38,018 nt of DNA from an uncultured Lachnospiraceae bacterium (GTDB lineage Bacteria > Bacillota > Clostridia > Lachnospirales > Lachnospiraceae): positions 1 to 38,018 of the forward strand of contig CAMWGV010000029.1 of NCBI GenBank assembly GCA_947173945.1, in the 5' to 3' direction. Below are positions 924-26,935 of the stretch, piece after piece. Below the pieces are notes generated by a model that was not told the origin of the DNA, made no database searches, and saw only the letters and a program-made list of their open reading frames with translations. A program made the translations under genes and the position numbers. Position 1 is the first letter of the stretch; every line of letters starts with the position of its first letter.

Positions 924-2702
924 ATGGGTAAGCTGGGAATTGCCATTGATAGACAGAAGGAATCTATAAAGGGAATTATAAAGAGATATCTCATAACACT
1001 TATCTGTGTAAATGCGGCATGCATTTTTGAGATATTTCTTGATGCAACTGGTTATTATACGAAGAGCAGCGGGATGGGATCACTTTGGGGCAACGGCAGT
1101 GTAAGGGACATGGTTGATTATATATTGGGGTTCCTTGTATTGTTTGCAGTCGGAAGCTTTTTTGTGGAGAGTGTATTTACGGAGGATGGCAGTAACAGAA
1201 AAAAGCTTGTCCTGCCATATATTTTGCTCGGAATTATCAGTGTTGTTTTGGATGTTCTCTCATGGAACGCAGATGATATATTTTCGAAAATGGGTCAGGA
1301 TATGCTTTTAAAGACCGTTTGGCTGTACATTATTTTATGTACGGTTCTTGGGTTTCATAAGCTGATAAAAAGCAGCGGTATGTCATTTGCAAAATATGCT
1401 GTCAATCTGCTTGTGGGTGCAATCAAGGTGGGAACCGTCCTGTTTTTGTTAAATGTGGGATTTGTTCTTCTGGTCACAATATTCGATATATTAATTCTTG
1501 ATATAAAAGAATGGGATTTTATAGAGTACGTTGAATTATTCCTCGTTGGAGCTGTTTATGTGCCATATACACTTATTTGTCTTACTGATAAAACGGAAAC
1601 AGAATCCAAATTTATAAGAAGTCTTTTGCTTTGGGTACTTATGCCAATGGTAAACGCCGCAATGATTATCATTTACATGTATGTACTGAAGATTGTTGTT
1701 ACGGGATATATGCCGAAAAATGAAGTGTTTGGCATTTGTGCAGGGCTGTTTTGTTGCGGAGTGGTTATTTGGACAATGGCATATCCGTTTGTGCCTGATG
1801 AATATAAAGATTCAAAGGGAAAGGCATTATACCGAAATGTAATAAAATATGCAAAATATATATATGCACCTTTTATACTGCTTGAATGCTATTGTATCGG
1901 TATCCGCATTAATGAATATGGAATTACCGTTGAGCGTTATTTTGCTGTTGTATTTATTATTTGCCAGATAATCTATGTGGCATGGGAACCGCTTTACGGA
2001 CTGGTGCGTAAAATGCTCAAAAAAGAAAAAAACGGATATGCGGAAGGCTATGAGAATCTGCTTTATGTCGGTATTGCAGTTTATGTGTTGTGTGTTATGC
2101 TGCCGTTTTTCAGTGCGGAAAAGGTGGAATTTCTGTCGCAGAAAAAGCGGTTTGAGGCTATTATGAATGGATATTCCGTAGATGAATTAAATTTGGCTAA
2201 GGATGACCTGCGGAGTGCAAGTAGCACATATCGGGTTATAATGTGGAACATTTACGGCGATGAATATTTAAGAGAAACGTATACGACAGACGAGAGAAAG
2301 AAATTATCAACATATTTTAAAACTGCGGATGTATCTGAAAAGTGGAATTATTATAAAAGCACAACAAAAGATGCAATTTCTGTTTCTGGCTACAGCTATA
2401 TGTATTCGTTTACGAAAAGTTTGCCTAGCCATGAGGAATATAATATTGACAATACAATGCCTGTGAGTATCAATATTCAGGACCTTCAGAATGGAGAGGA
2501 AGTCTGGGAGGTGGATGTCTGGGAGCTTGTCCAGCTTGTTATAAGACGTGGAAGTAATAGTGATTACAATGATGGTACATTGCCATATGAAATTCAGATG
2601 GATGGTGGAAAAAAATGTGTGGTATCCTATATCTCGTTTAGTTACAACGAGACGGATGGAACAATTAAGTATTTAGATTTGAAGGGTTATATTTTATGGT
2701 AG
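924..2702 (+). CDS. DUF4153-like polytopic membrane protein
   Basis: The 592-residue protein has about ten to twelve hydrophobic segments spread over residues 20-400. A soluble C-terminal portion of about 190 residues (from about 400) follows, rich in Tyr, Asp and Glu. The pattern VLMPMVNAAMIIIYMYVLKI followed by a short proline-containing loop and another helix pair resembles DUF4153 family proteins as I remember them. Function of that family is unknown. The start is supported by AAGGAGGG about 6 nt upstream. The stop is 10 nt before cdd, whose ribosome binding site follows immediately, so it is probably co-transcribed with the nucleoside genes. Family assignment is by recollection of motif style, not by search. 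Confidence 0.7.
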   Translation: MGKLGIAIDRQKESIKGIIKRYLITLICVNAACIFEIFLDATGYYTKSSGMGSLWGNGSVRDMVDYILGFLVLFAVGSFFVESVFTEDGSNRKKLVLPYILLGIISVVLDVLSWNADDIFSKMGQDMLLKTVWLYIILCTVLGFHKLIKSSGMSFAKYAVNLLVGAIKVGTVLFLLNVGFVLLVTIFDILILDIKEWDFIEYVELFLVGAVYVPYTLICLTDKTETESKFIRSLLLWVLMPMVNAAMIIIYMYVLKIVVTGYMPKNEVFGICAGLFCCGVVIWTMAYPFVPDEYKDSKGKALYRNVIKYAKYIYAPFILLECYCIGIRINEYGITVERYFAVVFIICQIIYVAWEPLYGLVRKMLKKEKNGYAEGYENLLYVGIAVYVLCVMLPFFSAEKVEFLSQKKRFEAIMNGYSVDELNLAKDDLRSASSTYRVIMWNIYGDEYLRETYTTDERKKLSTYFKTADVSEKWNYYKSTTKDAISVSGYSYMYSFTKSLPSHEEYNIDNTMPVSINIQDLQNGEEVWEVDVWELVQLVIRRGSNSDYNDGTLPYEIQMDGGKKCVVSYISFSYNETDGTIKYLDLKGYILW

Positions 2703-2712
2703 GAGGTTTTCT

Positions 2713-3132
2713 ATGGATATGGATGAAAAGGAGCTTGTACGACTTGCAAAAGAAGCAAGAGAACATGCATATGCTCCCTACTCTCATTTCAAAGTCGGAG
2801 CGGCACTGTTAACACATACAGGAAAGATTTACAAGGGCTGTAATGTGGAAAATGCATCCTTTGGAGCCACAAATTGTGCGGAGAGAACAGCGTTCTTTAA
2901 GGCAGTGTCAGAAGGTGAAAAATCCTTTGCTGCGATAGCCATTGTGGGAGCGCCTGACGGAACGGACACTGCGGATACATGTGCACCTTGTGGAATCTGT
3001 CGTCAGGTCATGAGGGAATTTTCCCAGCCGGAGGATTTTAAGATTGTGCTTGAAGATGGACAGGGAGGCACGATTTCCATGACATTGGAGGAGCTTTTAC
3101 CAAGAAGCTTTGCGGGGGAAAGTATGGGCTGA
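2713..3132 (+). CDS. cdd: Cytidine deaminase
   Basis: This enzyme hydrolytically deaminates cytidine and deoxycytidine to uridine and deoxyuridine in pyrimidine salvage. The 139-residue length is typical of the tetrameric zinc form. Signature pieces are visible in order: PYSHFKVGAALL near the N-terminus, the substrate-binding NVENASFGATNCAERTAF block with the zinc-ligand Cys and catalytic Glu, and CAPCGICRQVMREF with the other two zinc cysteines. AGGAGG lies about 6 nt before the ATG. It sits 21 nt upstream of add and 10 nt after the preceding membrane gene, so it is in an operon. Its product uridine would feed the uridine phosphorylase encoded at 11870, now separated from it by the accessory island. 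Confidence 0.95.
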   Translation: MDMDEKELVRLAKEAREHAYAPYSHFKVGAALLTHTGKIYKGCNVENASFGATNCAERTAFFKAVSEGEKSFAAIAIVGAPDGTDTADTCAPCGICRQVMREFSQPEDFKIVLEDGQGGTISMTLEELLPRSFAGESMG

Positions 3133-3153
3133 TGTTCAAAGGGGTGATTTTAA

Positions 3154-4116
3154 ATGAATATAATTAAAATGCCAAGAGTTGAATTGCATTGTCATCTGGA
3201 TGGCTCTATATCGAAGGCTTGTATGGAAGAACTGTTGGGAAGAACAGTAGATAAAGAAGAACTTAGTGTTTCGGACGATTGTCGGGATTTGGCGCAGTAT
3301 CTTGAAAAGTTTGATTTGCCTCTCAGTGCACTTACAAATGAAGAAGGGTTAAAGCTGGCTGGCAGTGATTTCATGAGAACGATGCACGAGGAAAAAATGG
3401 ATTACGTCGAGGTGCGGTTTGCTCCGCTTTTATCTGTAAATTCCGATATGACAACAGAAAAAGTAATACAGGCGGTAATAGACGGACTTGAGGCAGGGCG
3501 GCAAAAGTACAAGGTAGATTATGGTGTTATTGTATGTGCGATGAGACATCACAGCTATGATGAAAATTACGCTATGCTCAAGGTGGCACGTAAATTTTTA
3601 GGAAATGGTGTCTGTGGGGCTGACCTTGCAGGAAACGAGGCGGCATACCCAATGACCGAATTCGTGGAGCTGTTTCAGCATGTGAAAAAATGGGGGATGC
3701 CATTTACAATTCATGCCGGCGAATGTGGCAGTTCAAAAAATATTGAAGATGCAGTAAACTGCGGTGCGTCACGTATCGGACACGGCATAGCGATGGCAGG
3801 ACATGACGACGTTATGAGGCTTTGCACCCAAAAGAAAATAGGCGTGGAAATGTGTCCTGTAAGTAATTTACAGACAAAGGCTGTGGAGGATGTTTCAAAG
3901 TATCCTATGAGATTGTTTTTGGATAACGGAATAATGGTTACCGTAAATACGGACAATAGGACCGTAAGTAACACAACACTTGACAAGGAATTTGAATTTA
4001 TAAAGGAAAATTGCCATATTACAGATGGAGATATAATTAAAATGATGAAGAACGCAGTCGAGGTTTCATGGGCTGACGATGACTTGAAGGATAAACTTAT
4101 GAAAATGTTTTTGTAA
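3154..4116 (+). CDS. add: Adenosine deaminase
   Basis: The protein converts adenosine and deoxyadenosine to inosine and deoxyinosine. Metal-ligand and active-site motifs of the adenosine deaminase/AMP deaminase superfamily are present: VELHCHLDGS near residue 9 (HxH), FTIHAGE in the middle, SRIGHGI, and VTVNTDNR near the C-terminal third. The last is usually NTDDP in canonical enzymes, so Asn-Arg here is a mild deviation. The 320 residues are close to the usual 330-340. The ATG at 3154 follows GGGGTGATTTTAA, a weaker ribosome site than its neighbours. The gene ends the first salvage block and is followed by a rho-independent terminator. Confidence 0.93.
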   Translation: MNIIKMPRVELHCHLDGSISKACMEELLGRTVDKEELSVSDDCRDLAQYLEKFDLPLSALTNEEGLKLAGSDFMRTMHEEKMDYVEVRFAPLLSVNSDMTTEKVIQAVIDGLEAGRQKYKVDYGVIVCAMRHHSYDENYAMLKVARKFLGNGVCGADLAGNEAAYPMTEFVELFQHVKKWGMPFTIHAGECGSSKNIEDAVNCGASRIGHGIAMAGHDDVMRLCTQKKIGVEMCPVSNLQTKAVEDVSKYPMRLFLDNGIMVTVNTDNRTVSNTTLDKEFEFIKENCHITDGDIIKMMKNAVEVSWADDDLKDKLMKMFL

Positions 4117-4144
4117 ATAGACGATTGATTTTAATATTGGTTGG

Positions 4145-4190
4145 AAAAGCTTGGATGCCTATTTTATAAAGGTTTCCGAGCTTTCTTTAT
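4145..4190 (+). terminator. Rho-independent terminator after add
   Basis: AAAGCTTGGA at 4146-4155 pairs with TCCGAGCTTT at 4175-4184 (one G-T pair), followed by a T-rich stretch. It closes the cdd-add transcript just before the accessory island. Confidence 0.75.
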
Positions 4191-4465
4191 GTCTTATTGT
4201 TTTATTTGAAAAAGCCTGTTTCAAACAAAGTGGAAGATAGAGTTATAGGATAGACTATTCTTTCCCATCAGAAGTTAGATTGAATGTAATTCCTTGTATA
4301 CCTTTCTTGACAATGCGGCTAGCATATCTGTACAAGAAGAGAGAATGGTAGAGAAATTGTAGTTTACTTGTTAATTACAATGAGAAAAATTGTGAAATAA
4401 CGGCATTGCTTAAAATATAGAGTGTTTTAATGGGGGTAGTTTGAGTTGTAATAGCAAAAACGAAC
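4191..4465 (+). other. Non-coding AT-rich left flank of the accessory island
   Basis: No convincing gene was found here. A short minus-strand frame (about 40 codons, stop at 4255-4257) exists, but nothing in it is recognisable. No direct repeat shared with the right flank (11670-11869) was seen by eye. This is the probable left junction of the island. Confidence 0.4.
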
Positions 4466-4494
4466 TTGTGTTCTTGAGATGGAAGTGTTATACT
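4466..4494 (+). promoter_or_regulatory. Candidate promoter of the HTH/RM operon, extended -10
   Basis: TTGTGT (4466-4471), a 17-bp spacer and TATACT (4489-4494) with an upstream TGT giving an extended -10. A small inverted repeat, GAAC-TTGT-GTTC (4462-4473), overlaps the -35, where a regulator such as the HTH protein encoded next could bind. The operator role is inference. Confidence 0.5.
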
Positions 4495-4584
4495 ATAAAG
4501 AAATAAGTAATTGAGTGATACTTCAAATAAATGTTGCTATTGTTCGCCCCATCGAATACAATATATTATAAGAGGTGTATTATT

Positions 4585-4773
4585 ATGGGATATATTACAG
4601 CAGCGCAAGCAGCAGAAAAATGGAAAGTTTCACAAAGACGTGTGCAGATACTATGTGCACAACAAAGAATCGAAGGTGTATTTAAGCTGGGCGAAGTTTG
4701 GGCTATACCGGATGATGCTGAAAAGCCAAATGACAACAGAATAAAAAGGACAGAAAATAATGATGAAAACTAA
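4585..4773 (+). CDS. Small helix-turn-helix DNA-binding protein
   Basis: The 62-residue protein begins MGYITAAQAAEKWKVSQRRV and continues to a basic and polar tail. The first 45 residues fit the excisionase/MerR-like HTH_17 fold (AAEKWKVS-turn-RRVQILCAQQRIEG, then a WAIP wing). The start chosen is the ATG at 4585 with AGAGGTG 6-13 nt upstream; a longer in-frame reading from 4531 lacks a ribosome site. Its last codons overlap the first methyltransferase by 14 nt, so the two are translationally coupled. Small HTH proteins of this kind often precede RM genes in Firmicutes. It could regulate the cassette as a controller-like protein, but it does not look like a classical XRE-type C protein. Confidence 0.8.
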   Translation: MGYITAAQAAEKWKVSQRRVQILCAQQRIEGVFKLGEVWAIPDDAEKPNDNRIKRTENNDEN

Positions 4774-5854
4774 ATTAAAAGCAATAGATTTATTTTGTGG
4801 ATGTGGAGGATTTTCATATGGGTTTCAAGAAGCAGGCTTTGAAATGTTGTTGGGAATAGATATGTGGAAAGATGCTACAGTTACATATAAACACAATTTT
4901 CCTAATGCCACAGTAATAAATGATGATATTGAAAGGATAACTGCAAAACAAATAATGCAAAAACTAAATACAAGTAAAGATGATATAGATGTTATTATAG
5001 GTGGACCACCTTGTCAGGGCTTTTCAGTCTCTGGAAAGCGAATGATAGATGATCCAAGAAATAAATTATATAAGTCTTTTGTTAATTTGGTAAAAGAAAT
5101 TCGCCCCAAATTATTTGTTATGGAAAATGTGCCGGGATTGATAAGGCTGTTTGATGGAAAAGTAAAGGAACAGGTATTGGGAGATTTTTCATCAATAGGC
5201 TATACAGTAAAGGTACAATTGCTTTCTTCTGATATGTTTGGTGTTCCGCAACAAAGAAAACGAGTTTTCTTTGTTGGAATAAATAAAGAGAAAATCAAGA
5301 ATACAGAGGAGTTTACATTTCCAGAGGCCTGTTATGGTGAGGGATTGAAGGAATTTATTACTTGCGAAGAGGCTATATCCGATTTGGATTTTGTTCCAGT
5401 TGATATTTCTCTGGGCGAGGATATACCATATAAATTACCGCCGAATTGTGAATATCAAAAAAGGATGAGAGTTGGAAGTGATAGAATAAAGAATCATTCG
5501 ATAACTATTCATAAAGAAAAGACTAGAGAAATAATCGCAATGGTTCCTGATGGGGGTAATTATAAGAATTTGCCTAGCAATTTACAGGATACAAGAAAAG
5601 TACATATAGCTTGGACGCGAATGAACAGCAAAAAGCCTTGTTTTACGATTGATACAGGGCATAATCATCATTTTCACTATAAGGAAAATCGAGTACCTAC
5701 GGTTAGGGAGTCTGCTCGAATACAATCGTTTCCCGATAAATTTGAATTTATTGGGATAAAAACTAGTCAGTTAAAGCAAGTTGGTAATGCCGTTCCACCA
5801 TTGATGGCACAGGCAATTGCTGAAAAGGTAAAAAATGTTATAGAAAGAGGATAA
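4760..5854 (+). CDS. DNA (cytosine-5) methyltransferase, first of two
   Basis: This enzyme transfers a methyl group from S-adenosylmethionine to carbon 5 of cytosine. The order of motifs is complete: I (DLFCGCGGFSYGFQEAGF), IV with catalytic Cys85 (GGPPCQGFSV), VI (MENVPGL), VIII (PQQRKRVFFVGI), a target recognition region of about 110 residues, then IX (RESARIQSFP) and X (QVGNAVPPLMAQAIA). The 364-residue length is normal. The ATG at 4760 has AAAGGA 9 nt upstream; ATG 4763 is the alternative. It is tightly packed with the nuclease gene (4 nt gap) and the second methyltransferase, so it is most likely one modification arm of a restriction-modification system. Codon use is AT-rich relative to udp/deoB. 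Confidence 0.95.
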   Translation: MMKTKLKAIDLFCGCGGFSYGFQEAGFEMLLGIDMWKDATVTYKHNFPNATVINDDIERITAKQIMQKLNTSKDDIDVIIGGPPCQGFSVSGKRMIDDPRNKLYKSFVNLVKEIRPKLFVMENVPGLIRLFDGKVKEQVLGDFSSIGYTVKVQLLSSDMFGVPQQRKRVFFVGINKEKIKNTEEFTFPEACYGEGLKEFITCEEAISDLDFVPVDISLGEDIPYKLPPNCEYQKRMRVGSDRIKNHSITIHKEKTREIIAMVPDGGNYKNLPSNLQDTRKVHIAWTRMNSKKPCFTIDTGHNHHFHYKENRVPTVRESARIQSFPDKFEFIGIKTSQLKQVGNAVPPLMAQAIAEKVKNVIERG

Positions 5855-5858
5855 AAGT

Positions 5859-7292
5859 ATGTATAATCCCAAAAACCAATATAGATGTACAATAATAAGG
5901 GCGAGAGCGATTTCGGAAGTAGATGATTTGTTACCTAAATATGCTGCTGTAATTGATAATATTTGTCCATGTACAAAAGATGAGTTTGAGAGAGGCTTTA
6001 ATTCAGCTTTTCGTAACTATGCTGAAAGTAAGGCTCGAAATCAGAATAATGAAAGTGCAATAAAGAAAACGTTGGACAATCATCGGACAGAAGTAAGTGG
6101 TTCGCTTTTTGGAATGCATTATGAGATTGATGGGATTGTTTATGCTTCTGAAAGAACTAAAAAATTTCTGCAAGATTATGATCAACCTGCCTTTTTTAAG
6201 GACTGGCTGTTAAAAATGCAATTCCCAAATGGAATGCAGAAATCACAAACATACACAAAGGTTATGGCAGATGGTTTAAGGTGTCAGCCATATTCAATAT
6301 TGTTAAAAGTGTTAGATTATGCTCGAAGGGAGGGTATAGTTTTACTTAAACAGGAAGTGGGTTACTATATTTTGAATGCAGAGAATGTACTAAAAGGAGA
6401 AGCCACCCCTAATGAAGTATTTGATGAAATAGTGAATGATAAGAGAATGGGGATTACTCCTAGAAAAATAGAAGTACCAGAGGGAGAAAATAAGTCTAAA
6501 TATTACCAGCATGTTACAGACCAATTGCAGTATTTACAGTTAGCCAATTTGATAATATTAGATGGACAAGAGGTAAAATTAAATCCGCATGAAATGAAGG
6601 CTGTTAAAATCTTTGAGGAATTATGGTCTAAGCCTCTTGGATTTGATATCTATTCATATGACGTAAGTAGTGCTTCAGAGAGAAAAAGGTTAGAAGAAGA
6701 ATGGGCTATCTATTATGGAAAGCTTAGTGACAATGTTGATTTGTTGGACACACCAGTAGAGGCATTAATAGCACCAGAAATGGAAATTGATTATGAGAAG
6801 AAAAATAGCAAGAGAACTAATAAGACAGAACTTGGAGATGCTGGGGAAGTGTATGTATATGAGTATGAGAAACAACGTGTGGGCAAATTCAATTCTCGGC
6901 TTGTAAACAATGTCTTGGCACTTGGAAAAACAAAGGGATTAGGATATGATATTCAATCAGTTATTGCTGAGCATGGAGAATTTGCTGAATTTATAAAATA
7001 TATTGAAGTGAAATCGACAAAAAGAGTGACTGCTCCAGATATAAACGATTCGATGTGGGTAGATACTGTAAATATTACTAGAAATGAATGGGTAGCTGCA
7101 TTGCAACATAAGGAGTTTTATTATATTTATCGAGTGTATTTTGTGCGTGGTGGAGTTGTAATGTATGTAATTAGAGACCTTTATAAGAAAATAGAAAGTG
7201 GAATTGTTGAAATAATCCCTATGACATATCGTGTTGACTTTCAAAATTCTGCTGTGGATAATGTGATTAGTGAGGTGAATCAAAATGTATAA
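5859..7292 (+). CDS. Putative restriction endonuclease with DUF3883 nuclease domain
   Basis: The 477-residue protein lies between two C5-methyltransferase genes. Its C-terminal part (about 322-460) starts with GDAGE, has GYDIQS with Asp364 and then IKYIEVKST with Glu383 and Lys385. That D...ExK arrangement fits the PD-(D/E)XK fold seen in DUF3883/NOV_C domains. The first 310 residues are not recognised; they are rich in charged helices and may carry DNA recognition. AGAGGA precedes the ATG by 7 nt, and the 3' end overlaps the second methyltransferase by 8 nt. Position and motif suggest the cleaving subunit of a type II-like system; enzymatic activity is inference. Confidence 0.75.
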   Translation: MYNPKNQYRCTIIRARAISEVDDLLPKYAAVIDNICPCTKDEFERGFNSAFRNYAESKARNQNNESAIKKTLDNHRTEVSGSLFGMHYEIDGIVYASERTKKFLQDYDQPAFFKDWLLKMQFPNGMQKSQTYTKVMADGLRCQPYSILLKVLDYARREGIVLLKQEVGYYILNAENVLKGEATPNEVFDEIVNDKRMGITPRKIEVPEGENKSKYYQHVTDQLQYLQLANLIILDGQEVKLNPHEMKAVKIFEELWSKPLGFDIYSYDVSSASERKRLEEEWAIYYGKLSDNVDLLDTPVEALIAPEMEIDYEKKNSKRTNKTELGDAGEVYVYEYEKQRVGKFNSRLVNNVLALGKTKGLGYDIQSVIAEHGEFAEFIKYIEVKSTKRVTAPDINDSMWVDTVNITRNEWVAALQHKEFYYIYRVYFVRGGVVMYVIRDLYKKIESGIVEIIPMTYRVDFQNSAVDNVISEVNQNV

Positions 7293-8283
7293 AGTAGTTT
7301 CATTATTTTCGGGGTGTGGAGGTGCAGATCAGGGGATTGTTGGCGGATTCATGTTTAATAAAAAAAGATATAAAAAACTGCCATTTAAGTTGGTTTATGT
7401 AACAGATATAGATCAGAAAGCCTTAAATACTCATATGAAAAATTTTAAATGCAGTAAGGTGGTATGTAAGGATATATGTGATACAGACAGTTCAGAAATT
7501 CCGGATTGTGATATAGTAGTTGGTGGATTCCCATGTCAGTCATTTAGTACAGTGAATCCTAATAAAGATCCGTTTGATGAGCGAGCAAAATTATATAAGC
7601 AAATGGCAAGAGTGGTGAAAGATAAGCAACCTAAAGTTTTTGTTGCTGAAAATGTTAAAGGGTTTATGACCTTACATAAGGGAGATATATTTAATAAAGT
7701 TATTTCTTGTTTTGAGAAAGCAGGTTATACAGTTTTTTCAAAATTGTTTAATGCTGCTGATTATGGAGTTCCTCAAAAAAGAGAGAGAGTAATCTTGCTT
7801 GGAATTCGTAATGATATTGCTCAAAATTTAGAGTATTATTGGCCTGATGAAACAAATAAAGAAAATTGGATTCCGCTTTCTGTGGCAGTGCCGCAATTGG
7901 CTATAGAGGAGGGGAAATACTATTTTTCACAGAGAGCAGTTCAAGGTATGAAGAATGCCAAAAATAATATGAAAAGAGGATTGTATCAGGATTTAAACAA
8001 ACCTTGCTTAACTGTTACAAGTCATTTGGCGAAAGTAAGTTTAAATTCGAGAGACCCAGTTCTTTTGGTGGATTCTGATAAGGAACTTTATCGGAGGTTC
8101 ACACCACTAGAAGCTGCAAGAATTCAATCATTTCCTGATGAATTTAAATTTGCAGGAAGCGAGACAGATGCCTATAAGCAAATAGGTAATGCAATTCCGC
8201 CAGTAATGTTTTGGCATATAATGAAGTCGATTGAAGATTATTTGGAGAAAGTGAACAAGGTTGATTTAGAAGAAGCAATATAA
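7285..8283 (+). CDS. DNA (cytosine-5) methyltransferase, second of two
   Basis: The 332-residue enzyme is a distinct C5-methyltransferase, not a copy of the first. Motif I is SLFSGCGGADQGI with an insertion of about 15 residues before VTDID; motif IV with Cys84 is GGFPCQSFSTV; motif VI is AENVKGF; motif VIII is YGVPQKRERVILLGI; motifs IX/X are EAARIQSFPDEF and QIGNAIPPVMFWHI. Its target recognition region is short. GAGGTGAA within the end of the nuclease gene serves as ribosome site, so the two are coupled. Two different C5-methyltransferases around one nuclease are usual when the recognition site is asymmetric and each strand needs its own methylase; that reading is inference. Confidence 0.95.
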   Translation: MYKVVSLFSGCGGADQGIVGGFMFNKKRYKKLPFKLVYVTDIDQKALNTHMKNFKCSKVVCKDICDTDSSEIPDCDIVVGGFPCQSFSTVNPNKDPFDERAKLYKQMARVVKDKQPKVFVAENVKGFMTLHKGDIFNKVISCFEKAGYTVFSKLFNAADYGVPQKRERVILLGIRNDIAQNLEYYWPDETNKENWIPLSVAVPQLAIEEGKYYFSQRAVQGMKNAKNNMKRGLYQDLNKPCLTVTSHLAKVSLNSRDPVLLVDSDKELYRRFTPLEAARIQSFPDEFKFAGSETDAYKQIGNAIPPVMFWHIMKSIEDYLEKVNKVDLEEAI

Positions 8284-8322
8284 TAAGTTATTTGAAACAA
8301 TATTATGAGGGGAGTTGGGGAA

Positions 8323-9144
8323 ATGAATCCACAAATTAAAGATCATTTTTATGATGACTTTTTAAAAGAACCTACAAAGGACAACTTTCAGAAATTTATG
8401 AGAAATTCTTGTGGTGAATTAAATGATGTTGATTTTAAAGAGGAATGGATTGAAAAAGGACCATTAGCAAAAATAATGTTGGCAATGGGAAATAATGGCG
8501 GTGGTATTGTGGTGTTTGGAATTAAGGAAAATGAAGACAATTTGTTTACAATTTCTGGATTAGATACAATTAAGGACACGGCTGATATTAGTAATAGTAT
8601 CGCAAAACTAGTATCTCCAAGTCTAGATTATGAGATTTTGAGCTTTTTGTATGATTCTTCTGTATATGGGATTTATGAAAATAAAAAATTCCAAATTATT
8701 GTAATTCATGATACACCAGAGAGATTGCCATTTGTTTCTTTAGGTCAATCTGATAAAATAGAAAAAGATGTAATTTATGTGAGACGAGGAACAAAAAGTG
8801 TTAGGGCATCTTCTGAAGAAATTCAAAGAATAATTGAGCGAAAGATTGCAACTATATATTCGGATAAAACAAATATTTCGTTGGACGAACATTTGATTCA
8901 GTTAAGAAAATTATATGATGAACTTCCTCAGAAAATAAGAGTGTTGGTTCGCAAAGGTACTCGGGCGCATTTTATGACATTACTAGAAACATTTGGAGAG
9001 CGAGTTGGGAGTGTATATGGAACACCTGATGAATATGAGGAGCAGGATAACCCCAATTATCCAGATGAAGATTATGAGGCATTCATATTGAGAATGATAA
9101 ATGCGAAAAAGTTAAAAATTGAGAAAATACTAGATGTGAAATAA
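8323..9144 (+). CDS. AlbA_2 (Schlafen-like) domain protein
   Basis: The 273-residue protein carries in residues 20-175 the pattern of the AlbA_2/divergent AAA-4 family: an acidic stretch (DVDFKEEWIEKGPLAKIMLAM), GNNGGGIVVFGIKE, a central DISNSIAKLVSPSLDYEI block, IIVIHDTPERLPFV and VIYVRRGTKSVRASSEEI. Such domains are linked to nucleic-acid binding and occur in many defence and regulatory proteins. The C-terminal 90 residues are helical and unassigned. The ATG at 8323 is preferred over 8305 because AGGGGAG (8308-8314) lies 8 nt before it. The gene follows the second methyltransferase by 39 nt with no terminator, so it is probably in the same transcript and may assist or modulate the RM system. 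Confidence 0.8.
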   Translation: MNPQIKDHFYDDFLKEPTKDNFQKFMRNSCGELNDVDFKEEWIEKGPLAKIMLAMGNNGGGIVVFGIKENEDNLFTISGLDTIKDTADISNSIAKLVSPSLDYEILSFLYDSSVYGIYENKKFQIIVIHDTPERLPFVSLGQSDKIEKDVIYVRRGTKSVRASSEEIQRIIERKIATIYSDKTNISLDEHLIQLRKLYDELPQKIRVLVRKGTRAHFMTLLETFGERVGSVYGTPDEYEEQDNPNYPDEDYEAFILRMINAKKLKIEKILDVK

Positions 9145-9168
9145 GAAATGGATGTACATATAGTGTTA

Positions 9169-9233
9169 TTGACAATTGTCAATGCTAGATTACAGCATAA
9201 AAGATATAATGTAACAGGATTGTTAATTGTTAC
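9169..9233 (+). promoter_or_regulatory. Two palindromes upstream of the ATPase-FRG genes
   Basis: TTGACAATTGTCAA (9169-9182) is a perfect 14-bp palindrome. About 30 bp further, GTAACA (9211-9216) and TGTTAC (9228-9233) form an inverted repeat around TTGTTAAT. A TATAAT lies between them at 9205-9210 and could be a -10, but no -35 is correctly spaced. The arrangement looks like paired operators around a promoter of the downstream pair. Confidence 0.5.
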
Positions 9234-9339
9234 ATTAAATATATATAACAATGTTTAAAAAGCATATATGAAGATTAACTTAGAAATTGAAAAAATGATT
9301 TTATGTTAATTTAATATACGATAGGGGAGGTTTTTTAAA

Positions 9340-10908
9340 ATGTACGATAGAAATGCATTTGGTAATCCTGATGGTTCAAGAACGGATATTGAAGATATGA
9401 TGTCAGAATTTATTGTATTTGATAAGAGATATTTTTCTTCTGGTGTTGCATCTCCTGATGATTTGAAAACAAGAGTGATTGTAGGACCGAAGGGCTCTGG
9501 TAAAACTGTATATTTACGAAGAATACGAGCGAATTTGAAACTGAATAACTCAATTCATGTTAATAGTATTGAACATGAACTTCCAGCAACTGACTTAGTT
9601 GTAAGATTTGGACAAAATTTCGCTGAAAGTAATATAACAGAAAAATGGATGTATGCTTGGAAGTTTGCAATTTTGCGAGCAGTAATTTCAAGTATTTTAA
9701 ATGATGAGGATTGGAATCAGGATGTTACAGAAAAAGAAAAAAACAAATTATTAGAGTACGAGGGAATTATATTTCCTAAATATAAAGTGCCAATGCCGAT
9801 ATATTCAGAACTTAGGAATATTTTGTCTCATTATTCAACAAAAAATACTTTTAATGAATATGCTGAGAGAAAAGAGTGGGATGAGATTGAAATTATTGTT
9901 GAGAAGATTTTTAAAAAAATGCCTGCATTATATTATTTTGTTGATTCAGTTGATGAAGAGTTTGGAAATGCACCAATGTATTGGCTTAGATGTCAAAAAG
10001 GTCTTTTTTATCAAGTAATGAGATTAATACGTAAAGAGTTATATGGTAATAAATTGCATGTAGTTATTTGTATCAGAGATAATGTTATGGCTTCAATATG
10101 TAAAAGTGAACACCATACACGTTATATAAATGAGGAACATGTCAAAATACTTAATTGGGATTATGCGTCTATCCAATATTTTTTTGAAAGTAAAATTGCT
10201 AATATGAAAAAGTGCTATTTTATAAATGAAAATTCCGAAAAAAGTGTAGTTAATTGGTTTGGCATAACACATATACACAATAATTATAGAGATATTGAGG
10301 AACCAATACTTCAATATGTATTAAGACATACAAGATTGTTGCCGCGAGATATTGTAATTATGGGGAATTCATTAAGTGAAATAAAGCAAATGAAAACAAA
10401 CTCTCCTCAAACAGATATTTGTAAAATGATAAGGAAGAAGGTTGCTAAATGTGCTAAGGTATTTGGCAATGAATTGTTGCAGATATGTGCAAATCAGATT
10501 AATAACAATGAAATGCCCAAAGATGCTGCAGAAAAAGAATATTCAGAAGTTTATACAAGTATACAAGAGTATAAAGAATCTACGTCTAATCGTATGAAAG
10601 AGGTTTTTGTGGATGTTACTTCTGATAAATTGAAATGGAATCAAATATGTGAATTAGAAGAAAGAGCGGAAAAACTTTTAGGTGAAAATTGTAAAATGTT
10701 TGATGTACTATGGCAGAATGGAGGTGTGGGTTATATTGAGGAAGGACCTAATGGTAAAGAAGAAATTTTTTTTAATGATGGATATCCAGAATTCTTGCTT
10801 CCAAAGGAGAAAAGCATATATATATTAAGGTCTTGTTTAATTGATGCAATTGGAATACATAATCCTATATGGGATACAAATCCTGTTTTAGGTGGCACTA
10901 CAGAATAG
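9340..10908 (+). CDS. P-loop ATPase, possibly Sll1717-type
   Basis: The 522-residue protein has a Walker A motif, GPKGSGKT at residues 49-56, and a Walker B-like strand ALYYFVDSVDEEFG near 200-213. An arginine-rich region (RHTRLLPRDIVIMGN) near 325-345 and a winged-helix-like C-terminal third follow. This layout resembles STAND-like or Sll1717-type predicted P-loop ATPases found next to defence genes. GGGGAGG lies 10 nt before the ATG. The next gene, with an FRG domain, starts 14 nt after its stop, so the two are probably one functional unit in which the ATPase senses or gates the FRG effector. That partnership is inference; no substrate is evident. Confidence 0.75.
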   Translation: MYDRNAFGNPDGSRTDIEDMMSEFIVFDKRYFSSGVASPDDLKTRVIVGPKGSGKTVYLRRIRANLKLNNSIHVNSIEHELPATDLVVRFGQNFAESNITEKWMYAWKFAILRAVISSILNDEDWNQDVTEKEKNKLLEYEGIIFPKYKVPMPIYSELRNILSHYSTKNTFNEYAERKEWDEIEIIVEKIFKKMPALYYFVDSVDEEFGNAPMYWLRCQKGLFYQVMRLIRKELYGNKLHVVICIRDNVMASICKSEHHTRYINEEHVKILNWDYASIQYFFESKIANMKKCYFINENSEKSVVNWFGITHIHNNYRDIEEPILQYVLRHTRLLPRDIVIMGNSLSEIKQMKTNSPQTDICKMIRKKVAKCAKVFGNELLQICANQINNNEMPKDAAEKEYSEVYTSIQEYKESTSNRMKEVFVDVTSDKLKWNQICELEERAEKLLGENCKMFDVLWQNGGVGYIEEGPNGKEEIFFNDGYPEFLLPKEKSIYILRSCLIDAIGIHNPIWDTNPVLGGTTE

Positions 10909-10922
10909 TAAGGAGATACAAA

Positions 10923-11669
10923 ATGAAAAATACTTTTCAAACATTAACTTATAGTACATGGTATGAAATGAAAAAAGATTTAACAAAAGATATTTGTAAT
11001 AGGGATAATTTTCCTTATAATAAATTTTTATTTAGAGGGCATAGTTCTGAAGAATGGGGGTTAACAGCAACTTTAGATAGAAGATATTCTGGATTAGCAT
11101 TAGGAAAAAGAAAAGAGAAAGAAAAATTTTTATTAGAGAATTTTCGTGACATGTGTATTACATGGGAAGGGAGAGGAAACTTAAGTAATTGTGATGAGAA
11201 ACAGTTAATGTCTATAGGACAACATTATGGTTTGCCTACAAGATTATTAGATTGGACATATAGTATATACATAGCTGCTTTTTTTGCGTTTTCAGATTTG
11301 ATGAGTGATGCTTCAAATGTTGCAATATGGGTGTTGGATAAGGAACATGAGATTTGGAATGCAAATTATGGTGTGACAATAGTAAATGCTAGGGTAGAGG
11401 AAAATGACAGGCAAAAATATCAATATGGTGTTTTTACATTAAATGAAAGTCCATGTAAATCAATAGAGGAATATGTAGAAACTTGTGGAAAACAATATTG
11501 CGTTGATGGAGCATTATACAAAATTATTTTGCCAAGTAATGAAAGGAAGATTGTTTTAAACGATTTAGAGATGATGGGACTTACACCATATAATTTGTAT
11601 CGTGGTATAGAAGGATGTGCAAGGACAACAATTTTGCGAGAGTTTATGCAACAGGATACGCAGGAATAA
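10923..11669 (+). CDS. FRG-domain protein
   Basis: The 248-residue protein contains the motif that names the FRG domain: FLFRGHSSEEWGLTATLDRR at 35-54, then IGQHYGLPTRLLDWTYSIYI at 98-117 and AAFFAFSD. The biochemical role of FRG domains is not settled to my knowledge; they are frequent in mobile and defence contexts. The C-terminal half (about 130-248) ends in a region with GLTPYNLYRGIEGCARTTIL and is otherwise unassigned. The ATG at 10923 follows AAGGAGAT by 7 nt; an upstream in-frame extension overlaps the ATPase gene and has no ribosome site. It is the last gene of the island; no convincing terminator follows. Confidence 0.85.
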   Translation: MKNTFQTLTYSTWYEMKKDLTKDICNRDNFPYNKFLFRGHSSEEWGLTATLDRRYSGLALGKRKEKEKFLLENFRDMCITWEGRGNLSNCDEKQLMSIGQHYGLPTRLLDWTYSIYIAAFFAFSDLMSDASNVAIWVLDKEHEIWNANYGVTIVNARVEENDRQKYQYGVFTLNESPCKSIEEYVETCGKQYCVDGALYKIILPSNERKIVLNDLEMMGLTPYNLYRGIEGCARTTILREFMQQDTQE

Positions 11670-11869
11670 GTTGATGCTATACTAGAATATAGTTGATGAG
11701 TCACTTTACAGGGCAATAGATGTAAAAGTATGATTTAGAAGTGAAAAAATAAGTATACAAATGTGGTGAAAAAAAGATAAGGGTTTCATTATCCGAGCAA
11801 AAGTTTTTATATTGAAAATGATAAAAATTGCAGTTGAATGTATATGTCAGAGGCAAAGGAGGAACCGCT

Positions 11870-12655
11870 ATGCAGAATTATTCAGGCGAAGTTGGATTAC
11901 AATATCATTTACAAATAAGACCCGGTGATGTGGGACGGTATGTTATACTTCCGGGAGACCCAAAGAGATGTGAAAAAATAGCAAGCCATTTTGATGAACC
12001 GAAGCTTATTGCAGACAGCAGGGAATTTGTAACATATACGGGATATCTGGATGGGGAAAAGGTAAGTGTTACCTCAACCGGAATCGGAGGACCGTCAGCG
12101 TCAATTGCTATGGAAGAGCTTGTGCTTTGCGGTGCAGACACATTTGTGAGAGTAGGTACGTGTGGTGGAATCGACATTGATGTAAAGGGTGGTGACATAG
12201 TAGTTGCCACAGGTGCAATCCGTATGGAGGGAACAAGCAGGGAATATGCACCAATCGAGTTTCCGGCAGTTGCCAATCTGGATGTGACAAATGCTCTTGT
12301 TGGGGCAGCAGGGAAGCTTGGGTACACATTCCACACAGGTATAGTACAGTGTAAGGATGCATTTTACGGACAGCATGAGCCGGAACGGATGCCTGTAAGC
12401 TATGAACTTCTTAATAAATGGGAAGCATGGAAGCGTCTGGGTGTTAAGGCATCGGAGATGGAATCAGCGGCACTCTTTGTAGTGGCAAGTCATCTTGGAG
12501 TAAGATGCGGTTCGAATTTTCTTGTAGTCGGCAATCAGGAGCGTAATGCAGCAGGGCTTTCCAATCCGATTGTCCATGACACGGAATCGGCAATAAAGGT
12601 CGGAATCGAGGCAATTCGAATCCTGATTGAACAGGACAAACAGGACAGAAAATAG
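11870..12655 (+). CDS. udp: Uridine phosphorylase
   Basis: The enzyme phosphorolyses uridine (and often deoxyuridine) to uracil and (deoxy)ribose-1-phosphate. NP-I family motifs are clear: [19 protein letters not shown] near the N-terminus, [29 protein letters not shown], and [12 protein letters not shown] with the catalytic-site Glu and Met. At 261 residues it is the expected size. The ATG at 11870 follows AAAGGAGG by 7 nt; the longer reading from a TTG at 11828 lacks support. deoB follows after 36 nt and uses the pentose-1-phosphate it makes. GC content is visibly higher than in the island just upstream. Confidence 0.92.
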
Positions 12656-16683: not shown

Positions 16684-18195
16684 ATGCGAGGTATATACAC
16701 ATCGGTAAATGACCTTAGAGAGAGAGTTTATGCAGAGGTTGCAAAGCTTTCTTATGACTATAAGGACGGAGATTTGTCACAAATGGAGCAGATACCTTAT
16801 AGGATTATTCCAGGTGAGGTTACGGTATACAGGGACAGTGTGTTCCTTGAGAGAGCTATCGTAAAGGAACGTATGAGGCTTTCCATGGGACTTCCGCTTC
16901 GGTCTCCGACAGAGCATGCACCTGTGTCAACAGGAGCGGAGGAGTGCGTAAAACCGGAAAAATACTATCAGCCTCCTCTTATAAATATAATAAAGTTTGC
17001 ATGTCATGCCTGTCCTGATAATGTTGTTAAGATAACCGATGCATGTCAGGGCTGTCTTGCGCATCCGTGTAAAGAGGTATGCCCAAGAGGTGCCATAAAA
17101 TTTTATGGCGGAAAGACTGAGATTGATCAGGAAAAATGCATCAAATGCGGCAAATGTGTCAGTGTGTGCCCATATGGTGCCATAGTAAAGCAGGAAAGAC
17201 CATGTGCAAAGGCGTGTGGAATGAATGCAATATCATCGGATGAGTATGGTCGTGCGGATATTGATCAGGAAAAATGTGTATCCTGCGGAATGTGTCTTGC
17301 CAATTGTCCTTTTGGAGCAATTGCAGATAAAGCACAGATATTTCAGGTTATTCAGGCTATCAAGAGTGATGTGCCTGTCTATGCTGCAATAGCACCTGCT
17401 GTTGCGGGTCAGTTCGGACCAAAGCTTACACCTGAGAAAATAAGGTCGGCATTTCAGGCACTTGGATTTACAGATGTTATTGAGGTCGCTATCGGGGCCG
17501 ACCTTTGTACGATACAGGAAGCGAAAGATTTTGTCTCTGAGGTACCTGATAATCTTCCGTTTATGGCAACCTCGTGTTGCCCTGCATGGTCGATGATGGC
17601 AAAAAAGGAGTTCCCGGAAATCGCGCATTGTATTTCAATGGCAATTACGCCGATGGTATTTACGGGAAGACTTATAAAGAAAAAATATCCGGACTGCAAG
17701 GTTGCATTTATCGGACCATGTGCTGCAAAGAAGCTTGAGGCAAGCAGAAGAACAATACGAAGCGATATAGATTTTGTGCTCACCTTCGAGGAAGTGATGG
17801 GAATGTTTGAGGCCAAACAGGTTGACTTTGATAAGCTGAAAGAAGATGATACCATGCATGGTGCAAGCGGTGACGGAAGAGGCTTTGCTGTCAGCGGAGG
17901 CGTTGCCAATGCTGTAGTAAATTGTATTTCAGAGCTTTATCCTGAGTGTGAGGTGAAGGTTGAAAATGCCCAGGGACTTGCAGAGTGCAGAAAGCTTCTT
18001 GCCATGGCAAAGGCAGGCAAATATAACGGTTATCTGCTTGAGGGAATGGCATGTCCGGGCGGATGCGTTGCAGGTGCAGGAACACTGCAGCCGATTGCCA
18101 AGTCAACGGCTGCAATTAATCTGCACAAAAAGGTTTCAACCAATGCCCACGCACTTCAAAGTAATTATAAAGATTTGGTTGACGAGCTTGAGTAA
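16684..18195 (+). CDS. Monomeric [FeFe] hydrogenase, group B-like
   Basis: The 503-residue protein reversibly reduces protons to hydrogen with electrons from ferredoxin. Iron-sulfur cysteines occur as C121/C124/C129/C133, then C152-C162 and C198-C208 (CxxCxxCxxxC). The H-cluster domain shows L1 TSCCPAW (296-302), L2 FIGPCAAKKLE (342-352) and L3 EGMACPGGCVAGAG (453-466). The Ala after CCP, GPC rather than MPC in L2, and the VAGAG ending differ from bifurcating or classical group A enzymes and fit group B as I recall it. AGGAGGAAT precedes the ATG. No hydE/F/G or NADH-binding partner is in the window. Confidence 0.92.
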   Translation: MRGIYTSVNDLRERVYAEVAKLSYDYKDGDLSQMEQIPYRIIPGEVTVYRDSVFLERAIVKERMRLSMGLPLRSPTEHAPVSTGAEECVKPEKYYQPPLINIIKFACHACPDNVVKITDACQGCLAHPCKEVCPRGAIKFYGGKTEIDQEKCIKCGKCVSVCPYGAIVKQERPCAKACGMNAISSDEYGRADIDQEKCVSCGMCLANCPFGAIADKAQIFQVIQAIKSDVPVYAAIAPAVAGQFGPKLTPEKIRSAFQALGFTDVIEVAIGADLCTIQEAKDFVSEVPDNLPFMATSCCPAWSMMAKKEFPEIAHCISMAITPMVFTGRLIKKKYPDCKVAFIGPCAAKKLEASRRTIRSDIDFVLTFEEVMGMFEAKQVDFDKLKEDDTMHGASGDGRGFAVSGGVANAVVNCISELYPECEVKVENAQGLAECRKLLAMAKAGKYNGYLLEGMACPGGCVAGAGTLQPIAKSTAAINLHKKVSTNAHALQSNYKDLVDELE

Positions 18196-22062: not shown

Positions 22063-22809
22063 ATGAATGAAAAGTATGGTATACAAATACAAAATCTGAG
22101 AAAAGAGTTTGGGAGCAAGGTCGCTGTAAATGATATAAACATAAATATAAAAGAAGGGCAGCTTTTCTCCATGCTTGGTGTAAATGGAGCAGGAAAAACT
22201 ACAACTATCAGAATGTTAATGGGACTCTCGAAACCTACATCGGGAGATGCACTGGTTATGGGACACAGCATTTTAACCGAGCTTTCGGCGGTGAAACAGA
22301 TTTCTAATTTTTCACCACAGGAAACATCAGTAGCACCAAACCTTACAGTTCGGGAAAACCTTGAGTTTTTTGCAAAAATTTACGGTGCAGATAAAGAAAA
22401 AGCAAGCAAACTGGTGGAGGAAATGATAGAAAAATTTTCGCTTCAAGAGGTGGAAAAAAGTAAAGCAAAAACATTATCAGGGGGCTGGCAAAGAAAGTTA
22501 AGTATTGCAATGGCATTAATTTCCTCACCAAAGGTTCTTTTTCTTGATGAGCCGACACTTGGACTTGATGTCCTTGCAAGACGTGAGCTTTGGAGCATCA
22601 TTGAAAAGCTGAAGGGAAATATGACAATCGTTCTTACGACACACTATATGGAGGAGGCAGAGCAGCTTTCGGATGAGATAGCAATTATGGTTAATGGAGA
22701 GATAAAGGCACATGGCACATTGGAGGAAATGAAGAGGATTACCGGTAAGGATAACCTTGAGGATGCATTTGTATCAATTGCAGAGGGTTCTGGAAAGACG
22801 GAGGTATAA
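22063..22809 (+). CDS. ABC transporter ATP-binding protein
   Basis: The 248-residue ATPase subunit energises the neighbouring ABC-2 permease. Motifs are Walker A GVNGAGKTT (about 39-47), Q-loop FSPQETS, signature LSGGWQRKL (Trp replaces the usual Gln/Glu, seen in some drug or antibiotic exporters), Walker B VLFLDEPTLGLD and H-loop LTTHYMEEAEQL. The ribosome site GGAGGAAG is inside the end of the DUF3021 gene, so they are coupled. The operon order regulator/DUF3021/ATPase/permease suggests export of an antimicrobial or lipid-like compound, but the substrate is unknown. Confidence 0.95.
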   Translation: MNEKYGIQIQNLRKEFGSKVAVNDININIKEGQLFSMLGVNGAGKTTTIRMLMGLSKPTSGDALVMGHSILTELSAVKQISNFSPQETSVAPNLTVRENLEFFAKIYGADKEKASKLVEEMIEKFSLQEVEKSKAKTLSGGWQRKLSIAMALISSPKVLFLDEPTLGLDVLARRELWSIIEKLKGNMTIVLTTHYMEEAEQLSDEIAIMVNGEIKAHGTLEEMKRITGKDNLEDAFVSIAEGSGKTEV

Positions 22810-24923: not shown

Positions 24924-25904
24924 ATGAATGATGACAAAATAGTAAAAACGATACGTGATTATCAGAGTAAGATAAAAAGCTTTTCGGGATTGCATACATT
25001 TATGGGCGTGATTGCATATGTGATTTTTCCGATAGGCTTACTTTTTTTGATTATTGATATTACATCTACGGCATTATCATATAAGTCAATGTATGGGATT
25101 GGTATAGCCATTGTTGTGGCTTTTTGCATATGTTTGTTTTTGCTAGTTAAGCATATAGATAGGCTTCAAAAGAAAATGAAACAGTTTATAGGTGAGCATG
25201 TGGTGAAGCATATTATTGCTGAACGGATTACGATTCAGGAATACAAGCCAAATGGTAGCTTTGACAAAGATTTTCTGTACTCATCAGGAGTACTGCCGGG
25301 CTATAGTAAAAGCTATGGATCAGATTATATAAAGGGTATTTATAGAGGAAAGGAAATTATATATTGTGATTTAAAGCTTGAGGCACAACAGGAAGACAGT
25401 GATGGTGATTATAAAACAGTTACTGTATTTAAGGGACCTGTTGTCAGCCTTGCTTTAGGTAGGTCTCTTGGAGATAAGCGTGTAAGAATTTTGGAGACGG
25501 ATAAAACTGGCAGGGCGATAAGTTCTATCGTAAATGCATATACCAATTTTTGGCGTGCATTTGGTGTAAAAACGATGGAACAGACAGTATCACTTGAAAA
25601 CGTGGGATTTAATAATCAGTTTGAAGTGAAAACTACTGACGAGGAGCTTGCATTTTACATACTGACGCCACAGTTTATGGAAAATATTATAAGTGCAGAC
25701 CGACTGGCAGAGGGACGTACAAACATTTGCTTTGGCGGCGACAGGGTCAATATAGCAATCCATAATAATCACGATGCGTTTGAGGTTGGTAATACAATGA
25801 AAAATACAAAACAGTTGGAGGATAGCAGGGCGAGAATGCGTGCTGACCTGAATAAGATACTTTCCGTTGTTGATGAAATATTAAAAAAGGATAAATTATT
25901 CTAA
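24924..25904 (+). CDS. DUF3137 family protein, paralogue 1
   Basis: The 326-residue protein has two transmembrane helices (about 24-48 and 55-75). A cytoplasmic-type domain follows with DYIKGIYRGKEIIYCDLKLE, VFKGPVVSLALGRSLGDKRVRILE, and the family-like NNQFEVKTTDEELAFYILTPQFMENI and DAFEV. The function of DUF3137 is unknown. It is the first of three tandem copies. Paralogue 2 is closest in sequence: both share the starts DDKIVKTIR and the ends VVDEILKKDKLF. AAGGGG is about 11 nt before the ATG. LemA is encoded 4 kb upstream, the usual companion of this family in my recollection. Confidence 0.85.
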   Translation: MNDDKIVKTIRDYQSKIKSFSGLHTFMGVIAYVIFPIGLLFLIIDITSTALSYKSMYGIGIAIVVAFCICLFLLVKHIDRLQKKMKQFIGEHVVKHIIAERITIQEYKPNGSFDKDFLYSSGVLPGYSKSYGSDYIKGIYRGKEIIYCDLKLEAQQEDSDGDYKTVTVFKGPVVSLALGRSLGDKRVRILETDKTGRAISSIVNAYTNFWRAFGVKTMEQTVSLENVGFNNQFEVKTTDEELAFYILTPQFMENIISADRLAEGRTNICFGGDRVNIAIHNNHDAFEVGNTMKNTKQLEDSRARMRADLNKILSVVDEILKKDKLF

Positions 25905-25948
25905 AATGAGAAAGCAGGTTGGATAAAACGTGGCAAGGGGAAGATAAG

Positions 25949-26917
25949 ATGAGTGATGACAAAATAGTAAAAACGATACGTGGTTATCAGCGTAAGATAA
26001 AATGCATTGATGGATTGGATTCGCTGATGGGGATTGCAATTATGATTGCTTTCGCAGTTTTCGTTTTTTTATTTGTGTATATGGTGGCATTATCATATAA
26101 GCCTATATATTTTGGAATGATTATGGCTTTCTTCGTGGTTTTACTTATGTTGTTTTGGGTTGTAGGTAAGCAAGTAGACAGGCTTCAAAAGAAAATGAAA
26201 CAGTTTATAGGTGAGCATGTGGTGAAGTATATTATTGCTGAACGGATTACAATTCAGGAATACAAGCCGCATGGCTGTTTTGACAGAGATTTTTTGAGTT
26301 CTTCGGGAGCACTGCCGGACTTTAGCCAAAGCTATGGGTCAGATTATATAAAAGGTATTTATAGAGGGAAGGAAATTATATATTGTGATATAAAGCTTGA
26401 GAGAAAAGGCAATGATGGAACGTTTATTGTATTTAAGGGATCTGTTGTCAGCCTTCCTTTGGGCAGACCTCTTGTAGGTAAGCGGGTAAGGATATTGGAG
26501 AAAGGAAGTAAGCCGATAGATTTTATTGAAAATGCATATATAAACGCAGAGACAAAACTTTATCGTGCACTTGGTATAAAAAAAGGTGAGGAGCAGACAG
26601 TTACACTTGAAAGTGTGGAATTTAATAATCAGTTTGAAGTGAAAGCAACGGATGAGGAACTTGCATTTTACATACTGACGCCACAGTTTATGGAAAATAT
26701 TGTAAGTGCCGACCGACTGGCAGAGGGGCGAACAAATATTTGTGTTGGCAGCGACAGGGTCGATATAGCAATCCACAATAATTACGATGCTTTTGAGTTT
26801 GGTAATACAATGAAAAATAAAAAACAGTTGGAGGAAAGCAGGGCGAGAATGCGTGCTGACCTGAATAAGATACTTTCCGTTGTTGATGAAATATTAAAAA
26901 AGGATAAATTATTTTAA
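25949..26917 (+). CDS. DUF3137 family protein, paralogue 2
   Basis: The 322-residue protein repeats the architecture of paralogue 1: a short N-terminus, two membrane helices (about 20-45 and 50-70), the motif RLQKKMKQFIGEHVVKYIIA, then the DUF3137 domain ending ELAFYILTPQFMENIVSADR and a helix RARMRADLNKILSVVDEILK that is almost identical between the two. The insert after CDIKLE is shorter here. ATG 25949 with AAGGGGAA upstream is chosen over an in-frame ATG at 25919. The similar upstream DNA (CAAGGGG and GATGACAAAATAGTAAAAAC) points to recent duplication. Confidence 0.85.
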   Translation: MSDDKIVKTIRGYQRKIKCIDGLDSLMGIAIMIAFAVFVFLFVYMVALSYKPIYFGMIMAFFVVLLMLFWVVGKQVDRLQKKMKQFIGEHVVKYIIAERITIQEYKPHGCFDRDFLSSSGALPDFSQSYGSDYIKGIYRGKEIIYCDIKLERKGNDGTFIVFKGSVVSLPLGRPLVGKRVRILEKGSKPIDFIENAYINAETKLYRALGIKKGEEQTVTLESVEFNNQFEVKATDEELAFYILTPQFMENIVSADRLAEGRTNICVGSDRVDIAIHNNYDAFEFGNTMKNKKQLEESRARMRADLNKILSVVDEILKKDKLF

Positions 26918-26935
26918 AGTCTGGAGAGGATACTT

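Follow-up and report, generated by a model that had tools for sequence, protein, structure and literature searches.

The question raised by this stretch of DNA (38,018 nucleotides of an uncultured Lachnospiraceae bacterium, contig CAMWGV010000029.1 of assembly GCA_947173945.1, the whole of which is referred to as the window) is whether two adjacent genes, one encoding a P-loop ATPase and the other a protein with an FRG domain, act as a single defence system or are neighbours by chance. An earlier inspection of the letters, the sequence-only reading, had taken them for a candidate undescribed system of sensor ATPase and effector behind palindromic operators. We find both genes in place, with intact ATPase motifs and FRG family membership, within an inserted island that also holds restriction-modification genes. 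Judged from sequence, the locus is plausibly a defence pair whose members come from known families; otherwise it consists of two independent neighbours. We favour, with a probability of roughly 0.4, a co-transcribed anti-phage pair in which the ATPase would control an effector with an ADP-ribosyltransferase (ART) fold.

Two adjacent genes on one strand

9340-10908, + strand: P-loop ATPase of the Sll1717 family, 522 amino acids (NCBIfam NF047389 and open reading frame)
10923-11669, + strand: FRG-domain protein (PDC-S15), 248 amino acids, predicted ADP-ribosyltransferase-like fold (Pfam, PADLOC and structure model)

Both open reading frames and the intergenic gap of 14 nt are as first described, and the two genes share a strand. 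A longer FRG frame begins at 10869; since the AAGGAG at 10910-10915 favours the start at 10923, which it precedes, we adopt the latter and hence the 14-nt gap. The ATPase gene has its own ribosome-binding site, AGGGGAGG, at 9323-9330.

According to the favoured reading the two genes would be transcribed as one mRNA, and the Sll1717-family ATPase would act as the sensing or holding component, in contact with the FRG protein as effector. Infection would trigger the ATPase, upon which the FRG protein, as an ART-fold enzyme, would consume NAD+ or transfer ADP-ribose; this action may then stop the cell and thereby the growth of the phage. The division into an ATPase control unit and an ART-fold effector appears reasonable because of the Sll1717 family assignment with its kept motifs, the PDC-S15 match and the ART-resembling structure model. 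The proposed roles of sensor and effector draw on the shared strand, the 14-nt spacing, the island, the PADLOC candidate status of the FRG protein and a weak similarity to an antiphage model, and are weakened by a lack of recurrence (see below). The notion of an undescribed system holds only in part: both families have been described before, and any novelty would be confined to their combination. Should the proposal be right, the locus would encode a compact system whose FRG enzyme could be switched on by a known partner, a prediction that is testable; if the pair reading is false, the locus is one more chance neighbourhood in a defence island.

The FRG protein as putative effector

The FRG domain recognized in the sequence-only reading is borne out by Pfam (PF08867, E 1.3e-21, 77.7 bits against a gathering cut-off of 25). 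Moreover, 14 PDC-S15 models of PADLOC match the protein, the best being PDLC04937 (E 3.3e-59, 198.6 bits, residues 2-237). PDC-S15 has candidate status in PADLOC, and the locus studied here differs from it in that the FRG gene is preceded by an ATPase gene at 14 nt. The structure model of the FRG protein is confident (pLDDT 89.1) and in a fold comparison resembles ART folds with middling scores, so that an ART-like fold is predicted; a sequence search against solved structures returned nothing under E 0.08. The most conserved parts of the protein are the following.

11031-11039, + strand: FRG tripeptide F37-R38-G39; R38 and G39 at at least 90% in 46 sequences
11220-11264, + strand: core motif QHYGLPTRLLDWTYS, residues 100-114; Q100, H101, G103, P105-L108 and D110 fully conserved across 46 sequences
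11421-11435, + strand: QYGVF, residues 167-171; Q167 and F171 fully conserved across 46 sequences

The comparison with toxins makes R38 a candidate NAD-binding arginine. Judged by the starts of the matched ranges, it falls on Arg7 in 12 of 17 rows of cholera/heat-labile toxin and, in all 8 pertussis rows, on Arg9, arginines that we take to have catalytic roles in these toxins. The ART superfamily has its catalytic residues at an Arg/His, a Ser/Thr/Tyr and a Glu/Gln position; T112/S114 and Q167 were placed on the latter two by motif order only, and Q167 is the inferred candidate for the third. A more specific proposal, which we consider doubtful, is that the locus encodes a rare immune module of two components: a STAND/ORC-like Sll1717 ATPase would gate an ART-fold FRG protein whose active site, Arg / Thr-Ser / Gln, would be unusual. 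If true, FRG would gain a defined partner and a means of switching on its activity.

FRG genes are common. Within the phylum of the window, 31 of 398 genomes match one PDC-S15 profile, and 178 FRG loci on viral contigs were confirmed in one scan. The nearest FRG protein found is from Rhizobium jaguaris (36% identity, alignment A2), where the upstream neighbour is unrelated to the ATPase. One passage of PMC9503650 puts Frg among the biochemically characterised NAD+-using signal enzymes, whereas another states that it "might function" as a NADase; for the Frg clade of the ADP-ribosyltransferase superfamily these passages draw on Burroughs and Aravind 2020. The protein studied here shares with that clade, as presented there, the FRG family and the ART-like predicted fold, with the difference that its fold match is middling and that it is known from sequence and model. 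Literature searches, mostly without full texts, turned up no paper that reports experiments with an FRG protein.

The ATPase as putative control unit

The ATPase passes NF047389 ("P-loop ATPase, Sll1717 family") with 95.3 bits against a cut-off of 75. Residues 7-368 match model positions 1-350 of 454, and in this partial coverage the protein differs from the family model. Its motifs were examined in an alignment of seq­uences (A5) that comprises seven proteins, namely the ATPase, its relative at 74% identity and five members of the family that are 14-18% identical.

9484-9507, + strand: Walker A, GPKGSGKT, residues 49-56; G49, G52, G54 and K55 invariant in A5
9943-9966, + strand: Walker B, DSVDEEFG, residues 202-209; D202 invariant in A5
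10342-10353, + strand: PRDI motif, residues 335-338; P335 and R336 invariant in A5

The Walker A, Walker B and PR motifs are thus all kept, the first two with the letters given in the sequence-only reading; the PRDI motif is presumably sensor-2-like. W107 and W273 are further invariant columns. We take the protein to be a STAND/ORC-like P-loop ATPase whose C-terminal part has no recognised fold. Its score against the STAND family nSTAND_NTPase5 (PF25199) is 20.1 bits, below the gathering cut-off of 34, a result that does not exclude other STAND families. The C-terminal 152 amino acids gave no PHROG match and no Pfam family over cut-off, and the protein as a whole contains no DNA-binding family over the Pfam cut-off. 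It is matched at 5.2e-14 by the phage family phrog_13260, the function of which is not known. A structure model built from two sequences only reached a pLDDT of 31.7 and was left out of the fold search, and a sequence search against solved structures gave nothing under E 0.2.

A possible link to a known system was considered as well. DS-41 is an antiphage system from DefensePredictor (PMC13092281), and we assume that NCBIfam NF053860 (DS41_1) represents the first gene of that system. The ATPase matches this model weakly (1.1e-4, residues 26-138, the P-loop region), and another Sll1717-family protein does so at 5.3e-10 (38.9 bits), again in the P-loop region only. With a score of 21.3 bits where the cut-off lies at 370, and a match limited to the P-loop region, the ATPase is ruled out as a DS-41 protein.

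A scan of an 84,980-species collection with peptide patterns, which detects close relatives only, yielded a single close relative of the ATPase, on the RUG11220 contig CACXFV010000129.1, with 74% identity over residues 1-389, at which point the contig ends, before the position of a partner gene. The similarity at the DNA level starts at 9350, ten bases inside the ATPase gene, and the relative has a TIR/SEFIR gene upstream; therefore the ATPase is found in two distinct surroundings of defence type, and its leaders in the two are unrelated. The metagenome-assembled genome of the relative gave no additional ATPase piece and no FRG gene, where an empty search answer proves nothing. There was no ATPase match in the 8 other genomes of the genus of the relative, nor any further relative in plasmids, phages or viral contigs, and among 299 genomes of the family the own genome was the only one with a match. 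An extra match among 37 genomes of the same genus (a 24% stretch in a TIR-like frame) and two weak C-terminal matches among 392 genomes of the order were judged to be chance. A single-sequence phmmer search with the ATPase found no other Sll1717 member among the loci collected to that point; plasmid records with Sll1717 relatives numbered 5 for one query and none for another.

Viral contigs carry a set of six closely similar ATPases of the Sll1717 family, each 495-497 amino acids long (loci L232-L237, at about 3962-5449; 3137-4624 in L232). The frames beside some of them look like phage tail genes, in our estimation, and a role as phage-borne defence gene is possible.

Recurrence of the pair

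The sequence-only reading expected the pairing to recur and had set a neighbourhood survey beforehand as the test that could refute it. From outside the window, the survey comprised 123 distinct FRG proteins (77 viral, 32 from genomes and 14 from plasmids; for 115 of them 1200 or more bases are visible upstream) and 36 distinct Sll1717-like ATPases (20 from genomes and 16 viral; for 28 of them 500 or more bases follow downstream), where distinct means that the last 120 residues differ. The FRG loci were drawn from the phylum of the window, from 80 of the 178 confirmed viral loci and from 14 of 59 plasmid records, one plasmid region being without annotation; the Sll1717 loci came from genomes and viral contigs. 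The sample leans to viral contigs and the flanks of the genome loci are short (roughly 1.5 kb in those listed), while the 36 ATPases include the close relative ending at a contig edge and some weak family matches.

No Sll1717-like ATPase lies in the locus of any of the 123 FRG proteins, and none of the 36 ATPases has an FRG gene in its own locus; the loci that hold both genes are derived from the window only. The expected recurrence is therefore unsupported, with the caveat of the sole close ATPase relative ending before the partner position, and both counts weigh against a dedicated pair. Among 112 FRG loci, the window included, the same-strand frame directly upstream shows a Walker A pattern in 3, namely in the window itself, in the transposase helper IstB and, apparently by chance, in one further frame. 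The latter we take, from its setting, to encode a type I specificity subunit.

These results speak for two independent single-gene defence units that became neighbours by chance and perhaps share a transcript, with no shared mechanism, a reading that we regard as quite possible. The surroundings of the two families agree with it. Within 250 nt, 39 of the 111 other FRG loci have no same-strand frame of at least 60 amino acids; such a frame lies upstream only in 23, downstream only in 20 and on both sides in 29; FRG genes are thus not mostly solitary, and their neighbours are varied and include type I restriction operons. Similarly, 12 of 21 viral ATPases lack a same-strand frame within 100 nt. 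Against independence stand the common strand and the 14-nt gap, as well as the fact that the linkage test had no complete close relative at its disposal. Weighing both sides, we prefer the co-transcribed ATPase-FRG module over independent neighbours.

Some FRG genes adjoin or lie within type I restriction operons, as in the order hsdM-hsdS-FRG-hsdR on a plasmid of Rhizobium johnstonii (L221:3821-5086); by position and by the sequences of the neighbours, the genome loci L074, L077, L083 and L084 appear to show a similar setting. The genome of the window itself contains a second FRG gene (L204:4224-5312, - strand, contig G000:C25), which overlaps the end of an upstream gene at 5309-7621. This gene encodes 770 amino acids with a HEVSH (HExxH-like) motif and has no Pfam family over cut-off. 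The second locus is a different two-gene FRG arrangement.

The leader of the pair

9168-9183, no strand: perfect 16-bp palindrome ATTGACAATTGTCAAT, function undemonstrated
9204-9216 / 9228-9240, no strand: imperfect, AT-rich inverted repeat with 13-nt arms, 92% complementary

The palindrome reported in the sequence-only reading is indeed perfect, its length being 16 bp and not 14, and the second inverted repeat is present as well; the latter (9204-9240) overlaps a TATAAT at 9205-9210. The conclusion drawn from them, operators that imply tight control, is not supported. When the 195-nt intergenic region was shuffled 5000 times with dinucleotides preserved, 2.2% of the shuffles contained a perfect palindrome of at least 16 bp (P about 0.02), so that chance is exceeded weakly and the evidence is weak. 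The window contains 3 such palindromes against 0.77 expected, the other two inside open frames. One of these, a perfect 18-bp palindrome at 17092-17109, lies in a hydrogenase-like coding frame, which argues that palindromes of this kind arise without being operators. The whole genome has no second exact copy and two copies with one mismatch, and no counterpart exists upstream of the ATPase in the close relative; as a conserved operator the palindrome is unsupported. The fold of the leader is unremarkable (z-score -1.56).

These observations bear on a second alternative, a toxin-antitoxin-like pair in which the FRG protein would be constitutively toxic and the ATPase would neutralise it and repress the operon via the palindrome. 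A small putative enzyme after a larger partner at 14 nt would suit such a pair, as would the presence of a palindrome in the leader, and a weak promoter-like match (9/12) at 9136-9164, ending four bases before the palindrome, is in favour of an operator. However, the promoter scan gave fewer sites than the shuffles (16 against a mean of 22.7), the palindrome is weak and not conserved, and the ATPase lacks a DNA-binding family by the Pfam cut-off, which makes this alternative improbable.

The island and its flanks

4112-11854, no strand: inserted defence island, 7743 bp (blastn against same-genus genome G706)
4760-8283, + strand: restriction-modification operon, BpuJI-type (Pfam, PADLOC)
4760-5854, + strand: first C5-cytosine methylase (Pfam, PADLOC)
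5859-7292, + strand: BpuJI_N restriction enzyme (Pfam, PADLOC)
7285-8283, + strand: second C5-cytosine methylase (Pfam, PADLOC)
8305-9144, + strand: Schlafen AlbA_2 domain protein (Pfam PF04326, E 6.5e-13)

The defence island perceived in the sequence-only reading is real: the BpuJI_N enzyme, the two methylases and the AlbA_2 protein form a cluster that is missing at the same site in G706. In that genome (locus L202) the segments matched by blastn, window 2677-4111 to L202 9071-7617 and window 11855-12636 to L202 7593-6812, are 23 bp apart, against 7743 bp in the window. The island sits between an adenosine deaminase gene and a uridine-phosphorylase-like gene, named by reading its sequence. 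The left flank holds cytidine and adenosine deaminase genes of nucleoside salvage and the right flank the uridine-phosphorylase-like gene and a Metalloenzyme-family gene; the nucleoside-salvage genes adjoin each other in G706.

The ATPase-FRG pair forms the end of the island. The AlbA_2 gene starts 21 bp past the second methylase and ends 195 nt before the ATPase, and this contiguity might suggest that the ATPase works with the AlbA_2 or restriction genes, or that the module serves maintenance of the element and not phage defence, which we consider very improbable given that the ATPase has a leader and ribosome-binding site of its own and in the close relative follows a different gene, TIR/SEFIR.

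No integrase was found among the searched island frames of at least 90 amino acids, the shorter frames at 4112-4760 being outside that search. A small frame directly before the first methylase (4585-4773, + strand) resembles by eye an excisionase-type helix-turn-helix protein. Elsewhere in the window, three tandem DUF3137 proteins are encoded at 24924-27907 (+ strand); an ABC transporter gene lies upstream of them at 22063-22809.
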